A program made the position numbers and the translations under genes. This document shows positions 45,009-53,941 of a stretch of 64,000 bases of DNA, in pieces. The first letter of the stretch is position 1. Each line of letters starts with the position of its first letter. Under the pieces are notes generated by a model that made no database searches, was not told where the DNA came from, and saw nothing but the letters and a program-made list of their open reading frames with translations. This DNA is from Candidatus Hydrogenedentota bacterium (GTDB taxonomy: Bacteria > Hydrogenedentota > Hydrogenedentia > Hydrogenedentales > JAEUWI01): positions 310,001 to 374,000 of the forward strand of contig JAHBVV010000002.1 in assembly GCA_019637335.1 (NCBI GenBank), written 5' to 3'.

Positions 45009-46082
45009 TTATCGCCGCGCAACCGTCTCTATCGGAGCCGTTCCGGCCACCCGAAATCCATCGTACACCCGCGCCAGCTCCGGCGACCGGGCGTTTCGGA
45101 ACGCGCTCCGGCAATACCATGGTGTGTCGCTCCAGGATCCGCCGCGCTGCACGCGAACTGTTCCCGAACTCGGACCTTGTGGATCCCGCGCGGGGCTGCG
45201 CGCGTAGTAACCCTCGTCAAACCAGTCGGCGCACCATTCCCAGGCATTGCCGTGCATGTCGTAGAGCCCCCAGGCGTTTGGCCTGAACTGTCCCACGGCG
45301 GACGTAACGCTAATTCCATCCTCCCAGGGAAAAGGGGTCCAGTCGAAGCCCAGTACGCCAGCGACGGATGGGTTCATCACATTGGCAAATCCGCGCAGGG
45401 ACGCCGGCGTGTCACCCTCCGCATAAAGTTCGCTACTCCCGGCCCGGCAGGCATACTCCCATTCGGCTTCCGAGGGCAAACGGAACGCGAAACCGGTCTC
45501 CGAGGAGAGCCAGTCACAAAAGGCCCGGGCATCTTCCCACGATACGTTCACAACCGGCTGGGCGTCGCCATCCAGGGAAAAGCCCCGGTACGCGCCGCTG
45601 TTGTGACCGGGCCGAAAACGCCGGAACTGCGCATTGGTGACTTCGTGGCGTCCCATCCAGAATCCCCGGCTAATCTCCACTTCATGCCGGGGAGTCTCGC
45701 TTTTGTGGGATCGCACTTCGGGGCCGAATTCGCTGCGATCCAGAGAATCCGAACTGCCCATCATGAAAGCGCCCGGCGTGATCCAGACCAACTCGAGTTG
45801 CACCCCCCCGCCGAGATCCACGGTGCGGACCTCGCCGGGATCCGGAACCCCGGCTCCGTTCCACGCTATGCCCGGAGCCACCGCCATCCGGAACACATAG
45901 AACGCAAAGCCAAGCAGCATGAGGACCAGCGCGGCAAGCAGCAGAACCATCGTTCCCACGAGTGCGCGCCGCGCCCAGGGGTCCGGCGATTCCAGCGCAA
46001 CCGCCCCACGCCCCCGCCCCATGACGGTTTCCAACTCATCGGCAAGGGGGGATTTCGTGTCCCGAGACTCTACGCCTTGCAT
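45009..46082 (-). CDS. Membrane-anchored formylglycine-generating-enzyme (SUMF1/FGE-sulfatase) family protein
   Basis: This 357-residue protein has an N-terminal cytoplasmic tail, one membrane helix (about 41-66) and an extracytoplasmic FGE-sulfatase domain. The domain has ITPGAFMMGSSDSLDRS, GRHEVTNAQFRRF, QPVVNVSWEDARAFCDWLS, RLPSEAEWEYACRAG, NAWGLYDMHGNAWEWCADW and RGGSWSDTPWYCRSA. True FGEs oxidise a cysteine in sulfatases to formylglycine, but many homologues with this exact fold are non-catalytic adaptors or kinase-linked proteins. No sulfatase is in the window, and a kinase gene is nearby, so an adaptor or substrate role is equally possible. Confidence 0.85.
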   Translation of the reverse strand: MQGVESRDTKSPLADELETVMGRGRGAVALESPDPWARRALVGTMVLLLAALVLMLLGFAFYVFRMAVAPGIAWNGAGVPDPGEVRTVDLGGGVQLELVWITPGAFMMGSSDSLDRSEFGPEVRSHKSETPRHEVEISRGFWMGRHEVTNAQFRRFRPGHNSGAYRGFSLDGDAQPVVNVSWEDARAFCDWLSSETGFAFRLPSEAEWEYACRAGSSELYAEGDTPASLRGFANVMNPSVAGVLGFDWTPFPWEDGISVTSAVGQFRPNAWGLYDMHGNAWEWCADWFDEGYYARSPARDPQGPSSGTVRVQRGGSWSDTPWYCRSAFRNARSPELARVYDGFRVAGTAPIETVARR

Positions 46083-46348: not shown

Positions 46349-47398
46349 TCACGCCCAGGGCAGCGCCTCGACGGTGTCGATCTTCTTCCCCGGCTCGCTG
46401 GTCCAGGTGCTGCCGTCGGGCAGGACGCTCTCGGCCACATACTTGCCCGTTTCCGCGTTGGCGGTGATGATCTTGCCGCCCTTGGGCACCTTGTCGCCGC
46501 CGTAGCCCGCATGGCCCGTCGCGCGCCCGTAGTGCAGCGTGACCCCGCCCCAGACGCCCGCGTAGTCGTTCACGTGGTCGTGGCCGCAGAAGTAGGCGCG
46601 GACGGTCCCGAGCGCGTCGATCAGCGGCAGGCTCGTGCCGTCCTCCGCCCACGAGCACACCTCCTCCAGGAACACGCCGCCGGTCTCCGGCTTCGCCCAC
46701 ACATCCGTGTATTGCTTCACGGGGATGTGGACGACGGCGAACGCATTCTTCGCGCGCAGGCGGTGGTCCTGTTCCGGCAGCGCCTTGAGCCAGGCCTGCT
46801 GCGGGGCGAGCAGGCCGTCGTTCATGGAGTTCAGGCAGAGGAGGTCCCAGCAGGGCGCGCCGTCTCTGCCGGTCAGCGTCACAACATAGTTGCCGCCGCT
46901 GGCGCCGCCCCGGTAGAGCGACCCCTTTGCACCGTGCAGCGCGTCGTGCCCCTTCGCGTAGTCGTCGAGCTGGTCGTGGTTGCCCCACGTAAAGAGCCAC
47001 GGCACGCCCCACCCGGAAACCTTCTCGATCGCATAGGCCTGGAATTCCGCGCCCCGCCCGTCCGGGTTGTCGTGCCAGAGGTCGCCCGAAATGAGCAGCA
47101 GGTCCGGGCGCGTCTTGTCGATCAGCCGCGGGATATCCTCCAGCGTCTTCTCGTCCCGCGCGGGGCCGTGCTTGTCCCGCCCGTTGAAAAAGTGGATGTC
47201 CGTAAGTTGCAGCATGCGGATGCGCGACGGATCCGCCACCGCGAGCGAGGCGTGCTGCCCGGGATAGGTCGGCGAAGGCGCCAGGCCCACGCGCGCGGGG
47301 TCGATTTCCGCGCCAGCTGCGGATGGCAGGACGGCGGCGGCCGAAAGCGCGGCGGCGCTCCCGAGGAACTGGCGGCGGTTGACGTGAAATGGGGACAT
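46349..47398 (-). CDS. Tat-exported calcineurin-like metallophosphoesterase
   Basis: This 349-residue protein has a twin-arginine signal (NRRQFLGSAAALSAAAVLP). A complete metallophosphatase domain follows, with LTDIHF (D-x-H), LLISGDLWHD (GD), WGNHDQLDD (GNHD), AVVHIPVKQY (H) and FCGHDHVND (GHDH). The layout is that of the PAP29/Dcr2-type secreted phosphoesterases. All metal ligands are present, in contrast to the PAP-like protein at 19943-21598. AGGAG lies seven bases before the ATG. The substrate is unknown. It is transcribed alone, flanked by palindromic repeats. Confidence 0.9.
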   Translation of the reverse strand: MSPFHVNRRQFLGSAAALSAAAVLPSAAGAEIDPARVGLAPSPTYPGQHASLAVADPSRIRMLQLTDIHFFNGRDKHGPARDEKTLEDIPRLIDKTRPDLLLISGDLWHDNPDGRGAEFQAYAIEKVSGWGVPWLFTWGNHDQLDDYAKGHDALHGAKGSLYRGGASGGNYVVTLTGRDGAPCWDLLCLNSMNDGLLAPQQAWLKALPEQDHRLRAKNAFAVVHIPVKQYTDVWAKPETGGVFLEEVCSWAEDGTSLPLIDALGTVRAYFCGHDHVNDYAGVWGGVTLHYGRATGHAGYGGDKVPKGGKIITANAETGKYVAESVLPDGSTWTSEPGKKIDTVEALPWA

Positions 47399-47748: not shown

Positions 47749-47967
47749 TTAGACGGCAAAACTGATGACCTCGTCCCGCACAAAATGCAACTGGATCGCG
47801 GGCGGGATATCGTTCTCATTCTCGAAGTGGCATTGCAGCGCGTCGCGGATCATCGTCTTGAGTTCATCAATCGTGTCGGCCTGCGTGGTGATATTCTCGC
47901 CCAACGCGCGCGCCACCCAGCCGCCGCCTACTTCGTCTTCCTCCACCTGAAATACGATTTCCGTCAT
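47749..47967 (-). CDS. HicB-like antitoxin-family small protein
   Basis: This 72-residue protein fits the HicB-fold pattern: VFQVEEDEVGGGWVARALGE, TQADTIDELKTMIRDALQCH and IPPAIQLHFVRDEVISF. Members are frequently annotated as HicB antitoxins or, wrongly, as 2-oxoisovalerate dehydrogenase fragments. They usually precede a HicA-type RNase toxin. Here the toxin is missing or truncated to a remnant, leaving an orphan antitoxin. AGGAG lies seven bases before the ATG. Confidence 0.75.
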   Translation of the reverse strand: MTEIVFQVEEDEVGGGWVARALGENITTQADTIDELKTMIRDALQCHFENENDIPPAIQLHFVRDEVISFAV

Positions 47968-48058
47968 GGCATGCTCCTGTGTCTTAATCAGTATGCCACC
48001 ACCGGTCTTGAACGGGCAACTCCCCGTCTCCGCACGCAAACGCCTGTCTGATCCGCCC

Positions 48059-48637
48059 TTATCCCCCATCCCGCGCGCAGAAATCGTACAGCGCAAAGAA
48101 GACCTCGCGGATGTTCCCGCCGTTCCGCGCGAATTCCTCCCGCGCCCGCGGCCACAGCCGCTCGCAATCCGCCGGCGCGAGTTGCTGGAGGAGTTCCCGG
48201 AGCAGGGCCTCGCCGGTGCGCGCGGTATACAGCGCCGGGAGGCGGCCCGGGCGGTGCACGGTGATCACGAAGCCGCGAAACCGCCGCGCGCGCCAGCGGA
48301 TGCGCCGCCACGCGATCGGGCCGAGCTGTTCGGCCCCGTCGAGAAACAGCACACAATCGGAGGGTGCCGCATGGATCGCCGCCCGCGCCGCCGCAAACTT
48401 CCGGGGCATCTCCTCGTTGAGGAAGACGTACACCACCGGGATCCCCCGCGCCTCAAGCCGCGCCTCCGCTTCGAGCAGCAGCGTGGTCTTGCCGGATCCG
48501 TGCGGCCCCACAATCGCCCCGCGAACGCCCGGCGCCGCGATCCGGCCAATAAACGCCTCCCAATCAAGGTCCGGCGCGCGGTATGGCAGCGCCTCGATCC
48601 GCGCCACCCGAAACGGGTTCTGGTCCGCGCTTACCAT
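48059..48637 (-). CDS. P-loop ATPase, last gene of the DUF3592/beta-domain operon
   Basis: This 192-residue soluble protein has a Walker A motif GPHGSGKTT near residue 45 and Walker B CVLFLDGAEQL near residue 100. A basic W-R-RIRWRARRFRG stretch and FVITVHRPGRLPALYT, resembling a sensor strand, follow. The size and motif order suggest a minimal AAA/STAND-like ATPase without the usual C-terminal lid, but I cannot place it in a family. It follows the small beta-domain gene by 19 bases and ends the four-gene operon. I chose ATG 48637; a TTG at 48643 is also possible. Confidence 0.75.
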   Translation of the reverse strand: MVSADQNPFRVARIEALPYRAPDLDWEAFIGRIAAPGVRGAIVGPHGSGKTTLLLEAEARLEARGIPVVYVFLNEEMPRKFAAARAAIHAAPSDCVLFLDGAEQLGPIAWRRIRWRARRFRGFVITVHRPGRLPALYTARTGEALLRELLQQLAPADCERLWPRAREEFARNGGNIREVFFALYDFCARDGG

Positions 48638-48656
48638 CGACAACGCCGCCGGGCGA

Positions 48657-49025
48657 TCATTCCACTTTCTTCAGGGTCACCTGCTCCACCCACGGCGACA
48701 CGATCAGGGGAAGCCGCTCCACCCGCTTCCCGTTGTTCAGGATCAGTTCGATCGCCCACCGCAGGGAGATGAGCTGCCCCTGGAAGCTGTAGGGCGCGGC
48801 GGGCAGCGAAAAGCGAAAGGTCCCCTGGATCTCCGGGAGGTGGGTTGGGAGGACCAGTTCCTCCACCACTTCCACATCCATGGAGCCCTTGCCTTCCGTA
48901 TACCAGAACAGGCGCAGCACGGCGGATTTGGGCGGGTCATCCAGCCGCCAGCCGAGGGCGCCCTCAAGCACCTGGCCGGGGACGAGCGTATTGGGGTCCT
49001 GGTGAAGCTGTAGAGAAAGGCTCAT
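48657..49025 (-). CDS. Small stand-alone beta-sandwich (arrestin-like) domain protein
   Basis: This 122-residue protein is entirely beta-strand-like. Its sequence pattern (P-G-x-x-L-x-G-x-x-x-W...V-x-E...LPEIQGTFRFSLP...LRWAIEL-LNNGKR-RLPLIVSPW) parallels the C-terminal domain of the two DUF3592 proteins upstream. Those end KIQWQ-KVHGDIRRWPDVNEEFELVVSPLP or similar. I infer that it is the same fold expressed without membrane helices. It begins 11 bases after the upstream gene's stop and has TAGGAG eight bases ahead of its ATG, so co-translation is likely. Confidence 0.65.
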   Translation of the reverse strand: MSLSLQLHQDPNTLVPGQVLEGALGWRLDDPPKSAVLRLFWYTEGKGSMDVEVVEELVLPTHLPEIQGTFRFSLPAAPYSFQGQLISLRWAIELILNNGKRVERLPLIVSPWVEQVTLKKVE

Positions 49026-49036
49026 GCGGCGGGCTC

Positions 49037-50290
49037 CTATTCCGGCAGACGGAACTCAGGCGCCAGCCGGATCGGGCTGGCGATGGGTAAAGGCGATACC
49101 ACGAAGTCGAATTCTTCACGCACATCCGGCCAGCGGGCGATCTCCCCGCGGACCCTTAACTGCCATTGGATCTTGTTGTTCGCGCCCGCCAATGTGGGCG
49201 CGGCGAACTCTGGAACGGCAAGCGCCACCTCACCCTCGCGGATTTCGCGTGGTTCCGTCGCCTCCAGGAGCGCTATCGACACAAATGTGCTTCTTTCGGT
49301 GGCCGTTGTTGTGCCGCGCCGGTACGTAGCCACTTCCAGCCCGAGCAGGGTGATCGAAAGCTTCCGGATGCGCCCGGCATTGCCGCGAAAGGACCATCCG
49401 AGCAGCGTGGAACCGCCGAGCGCCACGTGGCCCGGACGGAGCGTGAGATCGGGACGCGGGTTGAAGAGCTTGAACAGAAAGTATCCGGCGCCGCCGATAA
49501 GCGCGAGCCCAACAAAAACGAACGGGATGAGGAAGAGCAGTGACACCAGTTGGATGCTGCCATCCTCCTCAATGTTTATGTTCTGGAACATGGCGGCCAA
49601 GATCACGCCGTTCCAGACGAGCGCGGCGGCGAGTAAGACCGCAGGGCCGAGGATACTGTTCTTGCCCCCCGATAGCAGGATGGCGCCGGTATCCGACGCC
49701 AGCTCGGGCTGCTCCCGCCCGCGGGGTATCGCGGCCGCCCGGGGCGCTGGCGCGGCGGCCCCGCCCCGGCCCTGCTGCCGGATATCGCGGGCACAATAGA
49801 AAAAGAGAAACAGGCCGAAAAGGACGAAAATCAGTCCGAAGCAGCCGATGAGGTAAACGTTGCTGAATGAGCGGTCCAGCACGGCTTCGCCGGGGTTGTT
49901 CGGGTTAACGTAGCATTCGCGGGTTTCGCCGGCGGGGAACCGCGCTACACGGGCCTCCCCGGCCTCAAGCCCCCCGGAGGCGATGTCGAAGAAGTTGTAT
50001 AGGCCGCTCTCGTAGCGCGTCTCGTTCCAGGTATACGCATAGCGGATTTCCGTACTGTAGCGGATCCCATCATCGCCGGTATGCGTGAGCACCTGGCTTT
50101 CGAGGATGGTGCAGGGCGCGGCGGGCCAATCCTGCGCCGCGCGCCATTCGAGCAGTGGCAGGGCGCTGAAGGCGGTGAAGAAGCCGCCGCCCACAAGCAC
50201 GAAGACGCCCCCCGCGAAACGCAGTATGCGCGCGGAAGACCTCTCGGCCCGCTCTCGGGTTAACGGTCTCAAATCCTGTCTCCTGCCCAT
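49037..50290 (-). CDS. DUF3592-type membrane protein with C-terminal beta domain, paralogue B
   Basis: This 417-residue protein has a DUF3592 N-terminal part: a helix at about 20-45, the extracytoplasmic W-PAAPCTILESQVLTHTGDD and IRYAYTWNETRYES, and CYVNPNNPGEAVLDRSF before a second helix. Two more helices (about 220-290) are followed by a cytoplasmic beta-sandwich ending WQLRVRGEIARWPDVREEFDF. DUF3592 has no assigned function. The paralogue is immediately upstream and the stand-alone domain immediately downstream. Start: ATG at 50290. Confidence 0.75.
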   Translation of the reverse strand: MGRRQDLRPLTRERAERSSARILRFAGGVFVLVGGGFFTAFSALPLLEWRAAQDWPAAPCTILESQVLTHTGDDGIRYSTEIRYAYTWNETRYESGLYNFFDIASGGLEAGEARVARFPAGETRECYVNPNNPGEAVLDRSFSNVYLIGCFGLIFVLFGLFLFFYCARDIRQQGRGGAAAPAPRAAAIPRGREQPELASDTGAILLSGGKNSILGPAVLLAAALVWNGVILAAMFQNINIEEDGSIQLVSLLFLIPFVFVGLALIGGAGYFLFKLFNPRPDLTLRPGHVALGGSTLLGWSFRGNAGRIRKLSITLLGLEVATYRRGTTTATERSTFVSIALLEATEPREIREGEVALAVPEFAAPTLAGANNKIQWQLRVRGEIARWPDVREEFDFVVSPLPIASPIRLAPEFRLPE

Positions 50291-50352
50291 CCGCCTAAGC
50301 GGCCCTGCCGCCGGGCGAAGCCCCGCGCAATAAGCGCCGGCCCTGGCGCAGT

Positions 50353-51573
50353 CTAAACCTGGCGGAATTCGGCGGGCACGGGCCGCAGCGCGGGGTCCGC
50401 CGGCAGCGGCGACACCACCAGTTCGAACTCTTCGTTTACATCGGGCCAGCGCCGAATATCGCCGTGCACCTTCACCTGCCACTGGATCTTGTTGTTCGGC
50501 GCGTTGAAGGTGGGCGCCGTGAACTCGGGTACGGTCACGGCGACTTCGCCCTGCCGGATCTCGGCGGCAACCTCGGTTTCCACGATCACGATCTTCTCGA
50601 AAATGCTGCGATCCGTTGTGCTGGAGGTGCCCCGGCGATATGTGGCCGCCTCCTGCCCCTGAAGCGTGATGGTGAGCTTGCAGATCCGGCTGGCGTTGCC
50701 CCGGAAGGCCCAGCCAATCGTCGCGGTCCCGCCGAGCGGCAGATAGCCGGGCGAGAGCGTCAGGTCGGGCCGGGGATTAAAGAGCGTCAGGAGGAAGTAG
50801 AGCACGCCGCCCAGCAGCGCCAGCCCGATGAGGACGAACGGGATGAGGAAGAGCGTGGCCACCATGTCGAAGCCGCCGTCGCCCTGGCCCAGGGTATTCC
50901 ACAACGCGATGTACGTAATCCCGTTCCAGATGACCGCGAAAATCAATAGAAAAACGAATCCAATGAGGCTGTTGTTTCCGCCCTTGAGGGTGATCCGACC
51001 GGCGTCCAGCGCGGGCGCCGGGATCGCCTCCGAAACCGTGCCGGCCGAGCGCATGCCCGACGAAGAAATGCCCCGCTCCCGGGGGCTCCCGAGCCTGCCG
51101 AAAAGCATGAACGCGCCCACCAGCACAAAGATCAGGCCGAAACTGCCAATGAGATACGTGAAACTGAAGCCGCGCGCCAGCACGGCCTCGCCAGGATTCT
51201 CGGGATTGACGAAGCACTCGCGCATTGCACCGGCGGGGTACGCGTCCACCACGGCCTGCTTGCTGTTGTAGCCGGACGACGAACCCCCGAAGAAGTTGTA
51301 CTGGTCGCTCTCGTACTGCCGCCCCTCCCACGTGTACGCGTAGTGGATGGCGATGCTGTACGTGGTCCCGTCGGACGAACTGTGGGTCCGCACCTCGCTG
51401 CTGACCACCGTGCACGGAACCGCCGGCCAGTCCTGCGCCCCGTACCAGTTGTAGAGCGGCAGGCCGCTGAGGCCAATGGCCACGCCGCTCCCGATCAGCA
51501 TGAACACCAGGCCCATGACCCGCACGACGCAGCCATGCCCGGCGCCCGTACCGCGCCTCGATATCGATTTCAT
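50353..51573 (-). CDS. DUF3592-type membrane protein with C-terminal beta domain, paralogue A
   Basis: This 406-residue protein, first in the operon, has the same architecture as its neighbour: W-PAVPCTVVSSEVRTHSSSD, IHYAYTWEGRQYES and CFVNPENPGEAVLARGFS between helices. Two central helices and a C-terminal beta-sandwich with RPDLTLSPGYLPLGGTATIG and WQVKVHGDIRRWPDVNEEF follow. The proteins are clearly homologous over their full length, so one arose by tandem duplication. AGGAGG lies seven bases upstream of the ATG. The four-gene operon is compact, with gaps of 62, 11 and about 19 bases. Confidence 0.8.
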   Translation of the reverse strand: MKSISRRGTGAGHGCVVRVMGLVFMLIGSGVAIGLSGLPLYNWYGAQDWPAVPCTVVSSEVRTHSSSDGTTYSIAIHYAYTWEGRQYESDQYNFFGGSSSGYNSKQAVVDAYPAGAMRECFVNPENPGEAVLARGFSFTYLIGSFGLIFVLVGAFMLFGRLGSPRERGISSSGMRSAGTVSEAIPAPALDAGRITLKGGNNSLIGFVFLLIFAVIWNGITYIALWNTLGQGDGGFDMVATLFLIPFVLIGLALLGGVLYFLLTLFNPRPDLTLSPGYLPLGGTATIGWAFRGNASRICKLTITLQGQEAATYRRGTSSTTDRSIFEKIVIVETEVAAEIRQGEVAVTVPEFTAPTFNAPNNKIQWQVKVHGDIRRWPDVNEEFELVVSPLPADPALRPVPAEFRQV

Positions 51574-51804
51574 CCCGAACCTCCTGCCGGATACGATACT
51601 GCGAAGCCCGGCGCGATGCAACCGGCGCGATCTACGCCATGCCTGCGATCCGGCGCCAGGCGCTGAGCATGCGGGGGGGAAACTTTTTTTCACTGGACGA
51701 AGCCCGGAAATCGTTATAGTATGAAGTGTACGAGCAAAGACGCGGGGCGCACGGCTCACGAAGGCGGTGCGGCAGCAATGAATCAACCAGAGAGGGATTC
51801 AAGC

Positions 51805-52803
51805 ATGTTGGCGCAAACCAGTCATCGGTGTTATTCGGCATTTGTACTCGCTGCGGGGCTCGTCGGTACGGCGGCCCTCACAACGGGCTGCTCTCAAGCG
51901 GCGCGGTACGTTGAGCAGGACAAAAGCGCCGCCCCCGCAGAGGTGGCTCCACTGTCCAGGCGCTATGTAAGCCCCGAACATGCGCTGCCGCAGAATATGG
52001 GTTTCAACGATTCCTTGAAGCACGTGGCCAGGGCGGAGCCAGCCGCTTCCGCCTCCGTCCTGCCCGTTCCCGCGCTTCCCGCCGCCGCTGCGGCATCCAT
52101 ACTCCAGGGGGCGACGCCGGTGCAGCCGCATCTGGTTAAGACGGTGGATATTCACCTCCAGGCGGACGATGTCCGCGCGCAGAGCGCGGCGCTGCAATCG
52201 CTGACCACCGAAATGGGCGGCTACCTTTCCGCGCTAGACGAAGATTCGAACTCGGTGGAACGGACCGTTATCAGACTGACCTTGCGCATCCCCGCGCAGC
52301 AACTCGACGAGGCCATGAAGCGCATCGAGGCGCTCGGCAAGGTATTTCAACGCAGCATGACGACCCAGGATGTAACCCTGCAATTTGTGGACATGCAGTC
52401 GCGCCTGCGCAACCTGGAAAAGACCGAAGCCCGGCTGTTGGCCCACTTGGAGCAATCGGGTCCGATGGAAGCCATACTGACCGTGGAAAAGGAGATCGAT
52501 CGCGTCCGCGGCGAGGTTGAGACGCTCCAGGGCCGCATCAACGATCTGGGCAACCAGATCGGCTATGCCACCGTCCGCGTGACGCTGTCCGCAACCCCCA
52601 CCGCCGGCCCCATCACGCCCGCCGCCGCTTTCAGCACCAGCGCGACCTTTACCGACGCGCTACGCAACCTGGTCGGCTTCGCCCAGGGCGTGTGGTTCAT
52701 CGCGATCTGGGTTCTCGTCTGGATCCCGGTGTGGGTCCCGCTCGCGTTCCTCACGCGCTACATATATCGGCGTAGCCTGGAGGCAAATTCAAGCGCGTCT
52801 TGA
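51805..52803 (+). CDS. DUF4349-family lipoprotein
   Basis: This 332-residue protein has a signal ending in ALTTGC, so it is lipid-anchored. The DUF4349 domain follows, with VKTVDIHLQADDVRAQSAAL, an E-MGGYLSALDEDS-SVERTVIRLTLRIPAQQLDEAM stretch and a long coiled coil (about 205-270, LRNLEKTEARLLAHLEQSG and on). A C-terminal membrane helix (about 290-315, VWFIAIWVLVWIPVWVPLAF) completes it. Anchored at both ends, it could span a membrane-proximal gap. The function of the family is unknown. ATG 51805 with GAGGG upstream is preferred; 51778 is an alternative. It is divergent from the DUF3592 operon. Confidence 0.8.
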   Translation: MLAQTSHRCYSAFVLAAGLVGTAALTTGCSQAARYVEQDKSAAPAEVAPLSRRYVSPEHALPQNMGFNDSLKHVARAEPAASASVLPVPALPAAAAASILQGATPVQPHLVKTVDIHLQADDVRAQSAALQSLTTEMGGYLSALDEDSNSVERTVIRLTLRIPAQQLDEAMKRIEALGKVFQRSMTTQDVTLQFVDMQSRLRNLEKTEARLLAHLEQSGPMEAILTVEKEIDRVRGEVETLQGRINDLGNQIGYATVRVTLSATPTAGPITPAAAFSTSATFTDALRNLVGFAQGVWFIAIWVLVWIPVWVPLAFLTRYIYRRSLEANSSAS

Positions 52804-52888
52804 GTAGTGCGGGTGCTTGCATTCGCGCCGCACGGCGCCGATACTGGCTGCAGTGCAGCCAACATGCATCCATCGGACACCCACCACC

Positions 52889-53941
52889 ATGCAAACCGCG
52901 CGAATCGTGCAGATCGGGCTCCTGGCGCTCGTCGCCAGTGGCGCGCTGTCTGGTTGCGGCCCCGAGGCGCGGACGGGGTCCAGCGCGAGCCCCCAGGGGG
53001 AGGGCGAACCGGCGTACCGCCAGGCGACGGATCAACGCGCGTCCCATTCGGCTCCGGCGCACGACGCGGCATCCGCGTCCGCCATACACGAGGGCGCAGG
53101 GGCAGCTGGCGCTTCGATCCCTCCCTCCCGCCTGACACCCGAACTCCACGCACAGTTCGTCCGCGGTCTCTCCCTGGCCGAGGCGCGAGCATTGACCGCT
53201 ATCGCGCCCGTGCGCATCGGCGGCGATGGCGAGGCGACCGAGATCTATCGGTGGACCGATGGGGAAGGAAACCATTTCACGGCCCGCTTCGATTCCGGCG
53301 TGCTCAGGACCAAGAGTGGCCTGGGCGGGCAGTACGTGTCACGAAACAACGCGCCGCCCCGGACTCCCGTCGCTCCACCCGACACCGGCGGCGAAGCCGT
53401 CGCGGAGATCGCGCCGGGGGTCTTCATCCCCCTGGAGCGCGCGGTCGCCGCGTCCACGGGCCAGCCGCGCGGCATCGACAACACACCCCGCCCCGGCGTG
53501 CCCGAATCCGCCGCTCCACCCGCGCAGCCGCCCGCCACGACCAGCGGCCCCGCGCCTGGACCGCAAATCGCTATCGCGGGCGATGCGCGCGCCGCGTCGA
53601 GCAGCTACCAGCCGCGCGCGAATCTGCCCCCCTTCACGCGCTCGCTGCGTGACGGACGGCACGAGGTGCGGCTTCTCAACCCAGGCAACGCCACGATCCA
53701 GGCCGGGCTCCGCCAGGACAAGCTCGGCCGGGACATCACCATTCCGCCGGGCGGCCAGGCGTCTTTCCAGGTCGAGCGCGGGGTCTATCGGCTCTACTAT
53801 ATTCGCGAAAGCGAGCCCTATACCCTCCACGAGACCGATCCGCTGACCCTCGACGGCTTCCTCGCCCCGAATGTCGAGGTCCGCCTGGATCCGGCGAACG
53901 TGGAAATGCGCCTGATTGATTACAGCACGCCGGAACAATAG
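52889..53941 (+). CDS. Putative lipoprotein of unknown function
   Basis: This 350-residue protein has a lipoprotein signal (LLALVASGALSGC). A low-complexity Ala/Pro/Gly linker and two small compact regions follow: a FVRGLSLAEARALTAIAPVRI segment, and a C-terminal beta domain with DGRHEVRLLNPGNATIQAGL and GGQASFQVERGVYRLYY. The latter resembles small PEGA/DUF2808-like beta folds. No family is assigned. The ribosome-binding site is weak. It lies 85 bases downstream of the DUF4349 lipoprotein gene and 36 bases upstream of the Tat-exported oxidoreductase gene, so the three may be co-transcribed. Confidence 0.6.
   Translation: MQTARIVQIGLLALVASGALSGCGPEARTGSSASPQGEGEPAYRQATDQRASHSAPAHDAASASAIHEGAGAAGASIPPSRLTPELHAQFVRGLSLAEARALTAIAPVRIGGDGEATEIYRWTDGEGNHFTARFDSGVLRTKSGLGGQYVSRNNAPPRTPVAPPDTGGEAVAEIAPGVFIPLERAVAASTGQPRGIDNTPRPGVPESAAPPAQPPATTSGPAPGPQIAIAGDARAASSSYQPRANLPPFTRSLRDGRHEVRLLNPGNATIQAGLRQDKLGRDITIPPGGQASFQVERGVYRLYYIRESEPYTLHETDPLTLDGFLAPNVEVRLDPANVEMRLIDYSTPEQ

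Follow-up and report, generated by a model that had tools for sequence, protein, structure and literature searches.

A predicted split, membrane-anchored arrestin encoded beside a P-loop NTPase in Candidatus Hydrogenedentota

The window analyzed here is a stretch of 64,000 nucleotides from a Candidatus Hydrogenedentota bacterium (assembly GCA_019637335.1, contig JAHBVV010000002.1, positions 310,001 to 374,000 of the forward strand). It contains four closely packed genes, P0001 to P0004, which encode two related membrane proteins, a small soluble protein, and a P-loop nucleoside triphosphatase (NTPase; Table 1). The soluble protein and the C-terminal domains of the membrane proteins are predicted to be the two lobes of an arrestin, here carried by separate genes. 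The four-gene operon described in the initial annotation is confirmed: all genes lie on the minus strand (51573-48059), with intergenic gaps of 62, 11, and 19 bases, the last measured from the ATG start of P0004 at 48637. An in-frame TTG at 48643 is an alternative start for P0004, but the ATG fits the family start, M-x-ARDNPF, better. Promoter and terminator scans of the operon were uninformative.

Table 1. Coordinates of the genes and domains of the unit in the window, and of related one-piece proteins in three planctomycete loci.
Feature	Coordinates	Strand	Description
P0001	50353..51573	-	406 amino acids (aa); membrane protein with DUF3592 predicted ectodomain and predicted arrestin C-lobe
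P0002	49037..50290	-	417 aa; paralogue of P0001 with the same domain layout
P0003	48657..49025	-	122 aa; soluble stand-alone predicted arrestin N-lobe
P0004	48059..48637	-	~192 aa; P-loop NTPase (AAA+/STAND type)
Predicted arrestin C-lobe of P0001	50374..50766	-	profile match to one-piece arrestin C-lobes, E 1.1e-21
Predicted arrestin C-lobe of P0002	49049..49462	-	included in alignment A3
DUF3592 predicted ectodomain of P0001	51166..51420	-	conserved cysteine pair C54/C120; resembles BK-channel beta subunits
One-piece membrane arrestins next to the ATPase gene	L162:6422-8341; L165:7007-8696; L166:5960-8453

P0001 and P0002 had rightly been seen as full-length DUF3592 paralogues. They are 50% identical over 409 aa, that is, over their whole length, and both exceed the gathering score of the DUF3592 model (PF12158), with 68.1 bits (1.1e-18) for P0001 and 56.4 bits (4.9e-15) for P0002 against a cut-off of 25.3. 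The helix boundaries of P0001 were read from its AlphaFold2 model (predicted local distance difference test, pLDDT, 86) and secondary structure. A first transmembrane helix (TM1, 12-48) precedes the DUF3592 domain (52-136) and TM2 (138-158); a linker then leads to TM3 (202-229), TM4 (237-264), and the C-terminal lobe (268-385). Five membrane-protein relatives (L063, L065, L066, and second copies in L064 and L069) have no DUF3592, which they either lost or never had, and they retain the helices and the C-lobe. The C-lobe is therefore the core part of the protein, and DUF3592 is dispensable.

The initial annotation had also spoken of an expanded domain family, which is not what the wider comparison gives, as most relatives of the unit carry one membrane paralogue instead of two. 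In the tree, the single copy from another genome of the same genus forms one clade with P0001 and P0002 (support 100/97), within which P0002 evolves faster and sits on a long branch (0.82 vs 0.22). The pair is a duplication inside this genus, and as such a local feature. An independent tandem pair of membrane C-lobe proteins, one copy of which is strongly diverged (branch 2.04), is found in a planctomycete (L097:7266-9995), so the membrane C-lobe gene was duplicated more than once.

Single-chain AlphaFold2 models were made for P0003, with 42 natural relatives, and for P0001. In Foldseek searches of the PDB, the P0003 model (pLDDT 93) matched the N-lobe of ARRDC3 best (E 3e-7), along with TXNIP, Spo0M, and VPS26. 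The P0001 model independently returned the same list of arrestin-clan structures (best E 5e-7), in alignments about as long as its C-terminal domain. For both models the arrestin clan supplied the first matches, with a Foldseek probability of 1.00, at a sequence identity of about 8-17% in the structural alignments to ARRDC3, TXNIP, and VPS26. Similarly, the Pfam model Arrestin_N was matched by 9 of the 42 P0003 relatives (best 4.8e-4) and Arrestin_C among family members (best 9.1e-4), and a conserved motif, LPxxPYSFxGKLIxLxW, aligns with the final strands of the arrestin N domain. By themselves, none of the window proteins P0001 to P0004 reaches an arrestin cut-off in Pfam, and the Spo0M model (PF07070) has no match in them; the PDB sequence nearest to the P0003 family is TXNIP, at a non-significant E of 0.32.

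The structures and the family matches suggest that the beta domains of P0003, P0001, and P0002 are arrestin lobes, and this bears on the proposal that the three proteins share one beta domain. A common fold is indeed indicated, both by the structural comparison of the C-terminal domains with the stand-alone protein, in which unrelated folds were not seen, and by the bridging relatives described below; however, the domains correspond to different lobes and are not copies of one another. Pairwise BLAST of P0003 against P0001 and P0002 gave no match, and the profiles of the P0003 and C-terminal-domain families align only weakly (102 columns, E 0.033), a result that is not relied upon here.

The two lobes can be told apart by means of distant planctomycete relatives (L159-L166 and L169), in which a single polypeptide, without DUF3592, consists of a lobe, two membrane helices, and a second lobe. 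All six of these one-piece proteins that were scanned pass the Arrestin_N cut-off (best 3.2e-14), two of the six pass that of Arrestin_C (7.8e-13 and 2.4e-7), and two, L162 and L163, pass that of Spo0M (PF07070). Their N-lobes match TXNIP residues 11-146 with an E of 1.3e-11; a PDB search with the profile of their C-lobes gave no match. When ten one-piece arrestins were scored, the P0003-family profile (42 relatives) gave 24-44 bits on the N-lobes and 0.6-10.5 on the C-lobes, while with the profile of the membrane C-terminal domain the C-lobes scored 15-73 bits and the N-lobes 0.8-16; the lobe order was correct in 10 of 10 pairs in both directions. Comparison with hhalign agreed (P0003 family vs N-lobes, 2.2e-15; membrane domain vs C-lobes, 1.1e-21; crosswise, about 1e-4). 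Because the one-piece relatives sort the profiles lobe by lobe, P0003 is assigned as the N-lobe and the membrane protein as the carrier of the C-lobe. The window unit is thus a split, membrane-anchored arrestin, with its lobes in separate genes and not in tandem.

A second type of fusion is found in L136/L167, where the membrane protein with its C-lobe is joined by a short linker to an N-lobe in one open frame of 738 codons, although an assembly error in a metagenome-assembled genome could also produce such a frame. In addition, an ATPase gene adjoins the one-piece arrestin in L162, L165, and L166. The ATPase encoded there aligns along the length of P0004, including the NPF, Walker A, and TxH motifs and a terminal R-x(n)-LY motif. 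The planctomycete one-piece arrestins therefore resemble the window unit in their homologous N- and C-lobes and, in three cases, in the adjacent ATPase of the same family; they differ from it in being single polypeptides without DUF3592 and in the ordinary Walker B DE of their ATPases. No description of these one-piece membrane arrestins was found in the open-access papers searched.

The part of P0001 that precedes the linker shows a remote likeness to the beta subunits of BK channels. With Foldseek, the P0001 model matched hSlo1 beta subunits (E 2e-4, TM-score on target 0.32), and the Pfam model CaKB (PF03185) is matched by 9 of 34 membrane-protein relatives (best 3.6e-5); neither P0001 nor P0002 matches CaKB in the Pfam scan. 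The likeness spans DUF3592 and its two flanking helices (alignment A5), and the A5 profile matches KCNMB4 weakly (E 0.025) with both Cys regions in register. Like P0001, KCNMB proteins have two helices flanking a Cys-containing extracellular domain of similar fold; unlike P0001, they have no arrestin lobe and no TM3-TM4, and the similarity is only a remote one. The A5 profile also matched serotonin receptors, which was judged to be a hydrophobic-helix artefact.

The regions of P0001 enriched in positive charge are the segment ahead of TM1 and the linker (160-200); the DUF3592 loop shows no such enrichment. C54 and C120 are each kept in 33 of 34 relatives, the pair being probably disulfide-bonded. 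Together, the charge bias, the conserved cysteines, and the likeness to BK beta subunits argue for an extracytoplasmic DUF3592 and for a cytoplasmic C-lobe after four helices, on the same side as P0003 and P0004.

The unit is not confined to Hydrogenedentota. A scan of 84,980 species genomes yielded 42 loci, nearly all in metagenome assemblies, which by record name fall into eight phyla: Hydrogenedentota, Planctomycetota, Sumerlaeota, Verrucomicrobiota, Lentisphaerota (Victivallis), Acidobacteriota, Bdellovibrionota, and Pseudomonadota. The order membrane gene, P0003, ATPase on one strand is kept far beyond chance, in 37 of the 38 loci with room upstream and in 33 of the 40 with room downstream, and the start and stop codons of neighboring genes often overlap. 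The conserved unit consists of three genes, encoding the membrane C-lobe protein, the N-lobe, and the ATPase. This upholds the suggestion of the initial annotation that one kind of domain, in membrane-bound and free forms beside an ATPase, is kept as a functional unit. An ATPase gene that has moved away from the unit is usually retained elsewhere in the genome: it is full-length but not adjacent in G068, G069, G070, and G072, and it is distant from the arrestin genes in the Planctomycetota G099, G212, and G269 (in G099 about 5 Mb off, on the same contig). In one member of the window's own family (G034), P0003 and the ATPase share a contig, and the membrane gene is located on a different one.

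Co-occurrence gives a similar picture. With cut-offs of E < 1e-20 for the ATPase and E < 1e-50 for the membrane protein, the three families occur in an identical set of 11 species among the 68 Hydrogenedentota examined and are absent from the others; the naive chance that two families share these 11 of 68 species is 6.5e-13, uncorrected for shared descent. Among the 294 Planctomycetota sampled, the N-lobe occurs in 33, every one of which also has the C-lobe; of the 23 in which the ATPase is detected (E<=1e-12), 22 hold the N-lobe. In addition, distances within the N-lobe and ATPase families correlate at 0.46, a value reached in 0 of 1000 permutations.

It has to be considered whether the lobes pair at all. 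P0003 could instead be a cytosolic adaptor delivered by P0004, and the membrane lobe a separate anchor or dimerisation domain, the two being independent peptide-binding sandwiches. We regard this as unlikely. Single beta-sandwich lobes are able to function alone, the evolution of the C-lobe family follows that of the N-lobe family only in part (Spearman 0.20), and some membrane paralogues were duplicated without a second N-lobe. However, the N- and C-lobe identities come out separately, two distinct natural fusion types join both lobes, and all 33 planctomycete genomes with an N-lobe carry a C-lobe as well.

P0004, described from the outset as a small ATPase, does carry a P-loop. Its motifs are an N-terminal NPF, a Walker A (GPHGSGKTT), a Walker B-like FLDGAEQL, a TxH resembling sensor 1, and a GNxR resembling sensor 2. 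The Pfam match to AAA_16 (4.1e-5) is under the cut-off, and the weak AAA matches are all below every cut-off. Nine residues are invariant in 34 of 34 relatives (N9, P10, G46, G49, G51, K52, D102, H130, and Y186), and the Walker A lysine, K52, is followed by T or S. Immediately after the Walker B aspartate, 28 relatives have G, five have S, and one has C, but none has E, and an acidic residue stands three positions further on in 32 of 34; the P0004 family thus lacks the Walker B DE of AAA+ NTPases. P0004 may hydrolyse nucleotide slowly or serve as a nucleotide switch, as opposed to working as a motor. NACHT proteins carry a DGxDE Walker B motif, which the DGxE of the P0004 family resembles. NTPases of the AAA_16/AAA_22 and STAND/NACHT types share the Walker A and sensor-like motifs with P0004, whereas P0004 has no Walker B DE glutamate and, as far as Pfam sequence models of this protein of <200 aa indicate, no extra, effector, or winged-helix domain.

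Two further explanations were weighed. In the first, the unit would serve envelope-protein assembly or quality control, with P0004 as a remodelling ATPase, the lobes as substrate adaptors, and DUF3592 reading the state of the envelope. The AAA+-like motifs, including the GNxR, are in line with this, as are RFC subunits matched over positions 40-189 of the P0004-family profile and an extracytoplasmic ectodomain with a conserved Cys pair. However, no pore-loop region or oligomerisation domain is recognised in P0004, which has <200 residues, and genes for proteases, chaperones, or secretion do not recur in the neighborhood of the unit, which leaves this explanation improbable. The second, a device for anti-phage or inter-bacterial defence, was among the roles named in the initial annotation and is very improbable indeed. 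P0004 and 22 relatives match the PADLOC profile of the mads_8 ATPase (best 5.2e-7), and the P0004 family weakly matches the NACHT and novel-STAND models of Pfam; yet the mads_8 match of P0004 spans only positions 30-101 of 314, P0001 to P0003 match nothing in PADLOC, and the other MAD genes of a MADS system are not alongside. Moreover, the NTPase bears no effector domain, no defence genes or other neighbors recur, and the unit was not found in viral and plasmid collections.

As for the surroundings of the operon in the window, a small HicB-like protein (47752-47970, minus strand; DUF1902 E 6.4e-4, just under the cut-off) is encoded immediately downstream of P0004. Beyond it, by reading only, are a calcineurin-like phosphoesterase with a signal-peptide-like start (46349-47398, minus strand) and a formylglycine-generating-enzyme-like (SUMF1) gene (45009-46082, minus strand). 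On the other side of the operon, and transcribed away from it, lies the gene of a putative lipoprotein without a Pfam match (52817-53941, plus strand), separated from the operon by a DUF4349 gene (51721-52803). Four further Hydrogenedentota genomes (L060, L061, L062, and L066) have relatives of this lipoprotein directly next to the unit. It is the only additional gene conserved with the unit within the phylum.

The lobe identities, the three-gene unit and its co-occurrence, the one-piece relatives, and the predicted topology are all supported by the computations, and we infer from here to the docking of N-lobe and C-lobe, the ATPase as a switch, and an adaptor role. Overall, a split, membrane-anchored arrestin with its own ATPase, in which the lobes dock under ATPase control to form an adaptor, is in our judgment the probable explanation, held with some reserve. 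The N-lobe P0003 would dock on the membrane C-lobe, giving a two-lobed arrestin on the cytoplasmic side of the cell membrane, and the nucleotide state of P0004 would load, lock, or release the N-lobe. The completed arrestin could then act as an adaptor: it would bind or regulate either the cytoskeleton or a partner protein in the membrane (a transporter, channel, or receptor), in coordination with what the ectodomain encounters on the outer side. In known arrestins, the lobes meet at a polar core, which a phosphorylated partner disrupts, switching the protein (PMC2699828). Because the lobes are separate chains here, assembly itself could be the switch: the N-lobe could join or leave the anchored C-lobe, and P0004 is the natural candidate to time these events. 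For Spo0M of B. subtilis, interactions with cytoskeletal proteins that act in cell division have been reported (PMC5325327). More generally, the arrestin identity, which the initial annotation had not seen, favors an adaptor or sorting role.

Several observations weigh against this explanation. P0003 itself matches no Pfam or NCBIfam model, and its identity as a lobe comes from its family and from the bridge through the one-piece proteins. The modelling covers single chains, and the docking of the lobes is our inference. C-lobe distances correlate modestly with those of the other two families (0.20 with the N-lobe, by Spearman, and 0.25 with the ATPase). No ATPase was detected in G071, G073, G085, and G173 despite the presence of both lobes, most of these genomes being draft assemblies. 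The Walker B without glutamate suggests that P0004 may be a weak or non-canonical ATPase. Finally, the neighbor survey showed no partner gene that accompanies the unit in different phyla.

Arrestins are classic adaptors of eukaryotes, and their prokaryotic kin have been little studied; to our knowledge, bacteria are known mainly for one-piece soluble arrestins. The closest prokaryotic comparison is Spo0M (PF07070, bacterial and archaeal), which has the arrestin fold and whose B. subtilis representative (5cl2) ranks high among the structural matches of each lobe. Spo0M is a single polypeptide containing both lobes, and we know of no membrane anchor in it; the window unit, by contrast, places the lobes on separate proteins, anchors one of them in the membrane, and includes an ATPase. 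The best structural matches of the window lobes, the alpha-arrestins ARRDC3 and TXNIP and the retromer subunit VPS26, are eukaryotic proteins with two lobes per chain, whose partners (ubiquitin ligases, VPS35) are not seen here. That arrestin-clan proteins exist in bacteria is established, Spo0M being a prokaryotic member of the clan (PMC2515105). No description of a split, membrane-anchored, or ATPase-coupled bacterial arrestin was found in the open-access literature, in which the bacterial papers found concern soluble Spo0M.

With these assignments, three unannotated families, one of which matches no Pfam model, gain a shared identity, and DUF3592 is linked to the fold of BK-channel beta subunits. 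It is possible, though we advance this only tentatively, that bacteria in eight or more phyla use a switch of three parts: an arrestin put together from two separately made lobes at the inner membrane face, controlled by a dedicated nucleotide-binding protein and by a BK-beta-like ectodomain. If true, this would be receptor or channel regulation in bacteria, built from parts so far tied to eukaryotic membrane signalling and trafficking. As a split arrestin, the unit offers a small genetic system in which lobe-lobe assembly, the central step for arrestins, can be switched on and off by mixing proteins. It opens a further setting in which the working and the origin of arrestins can be studied.

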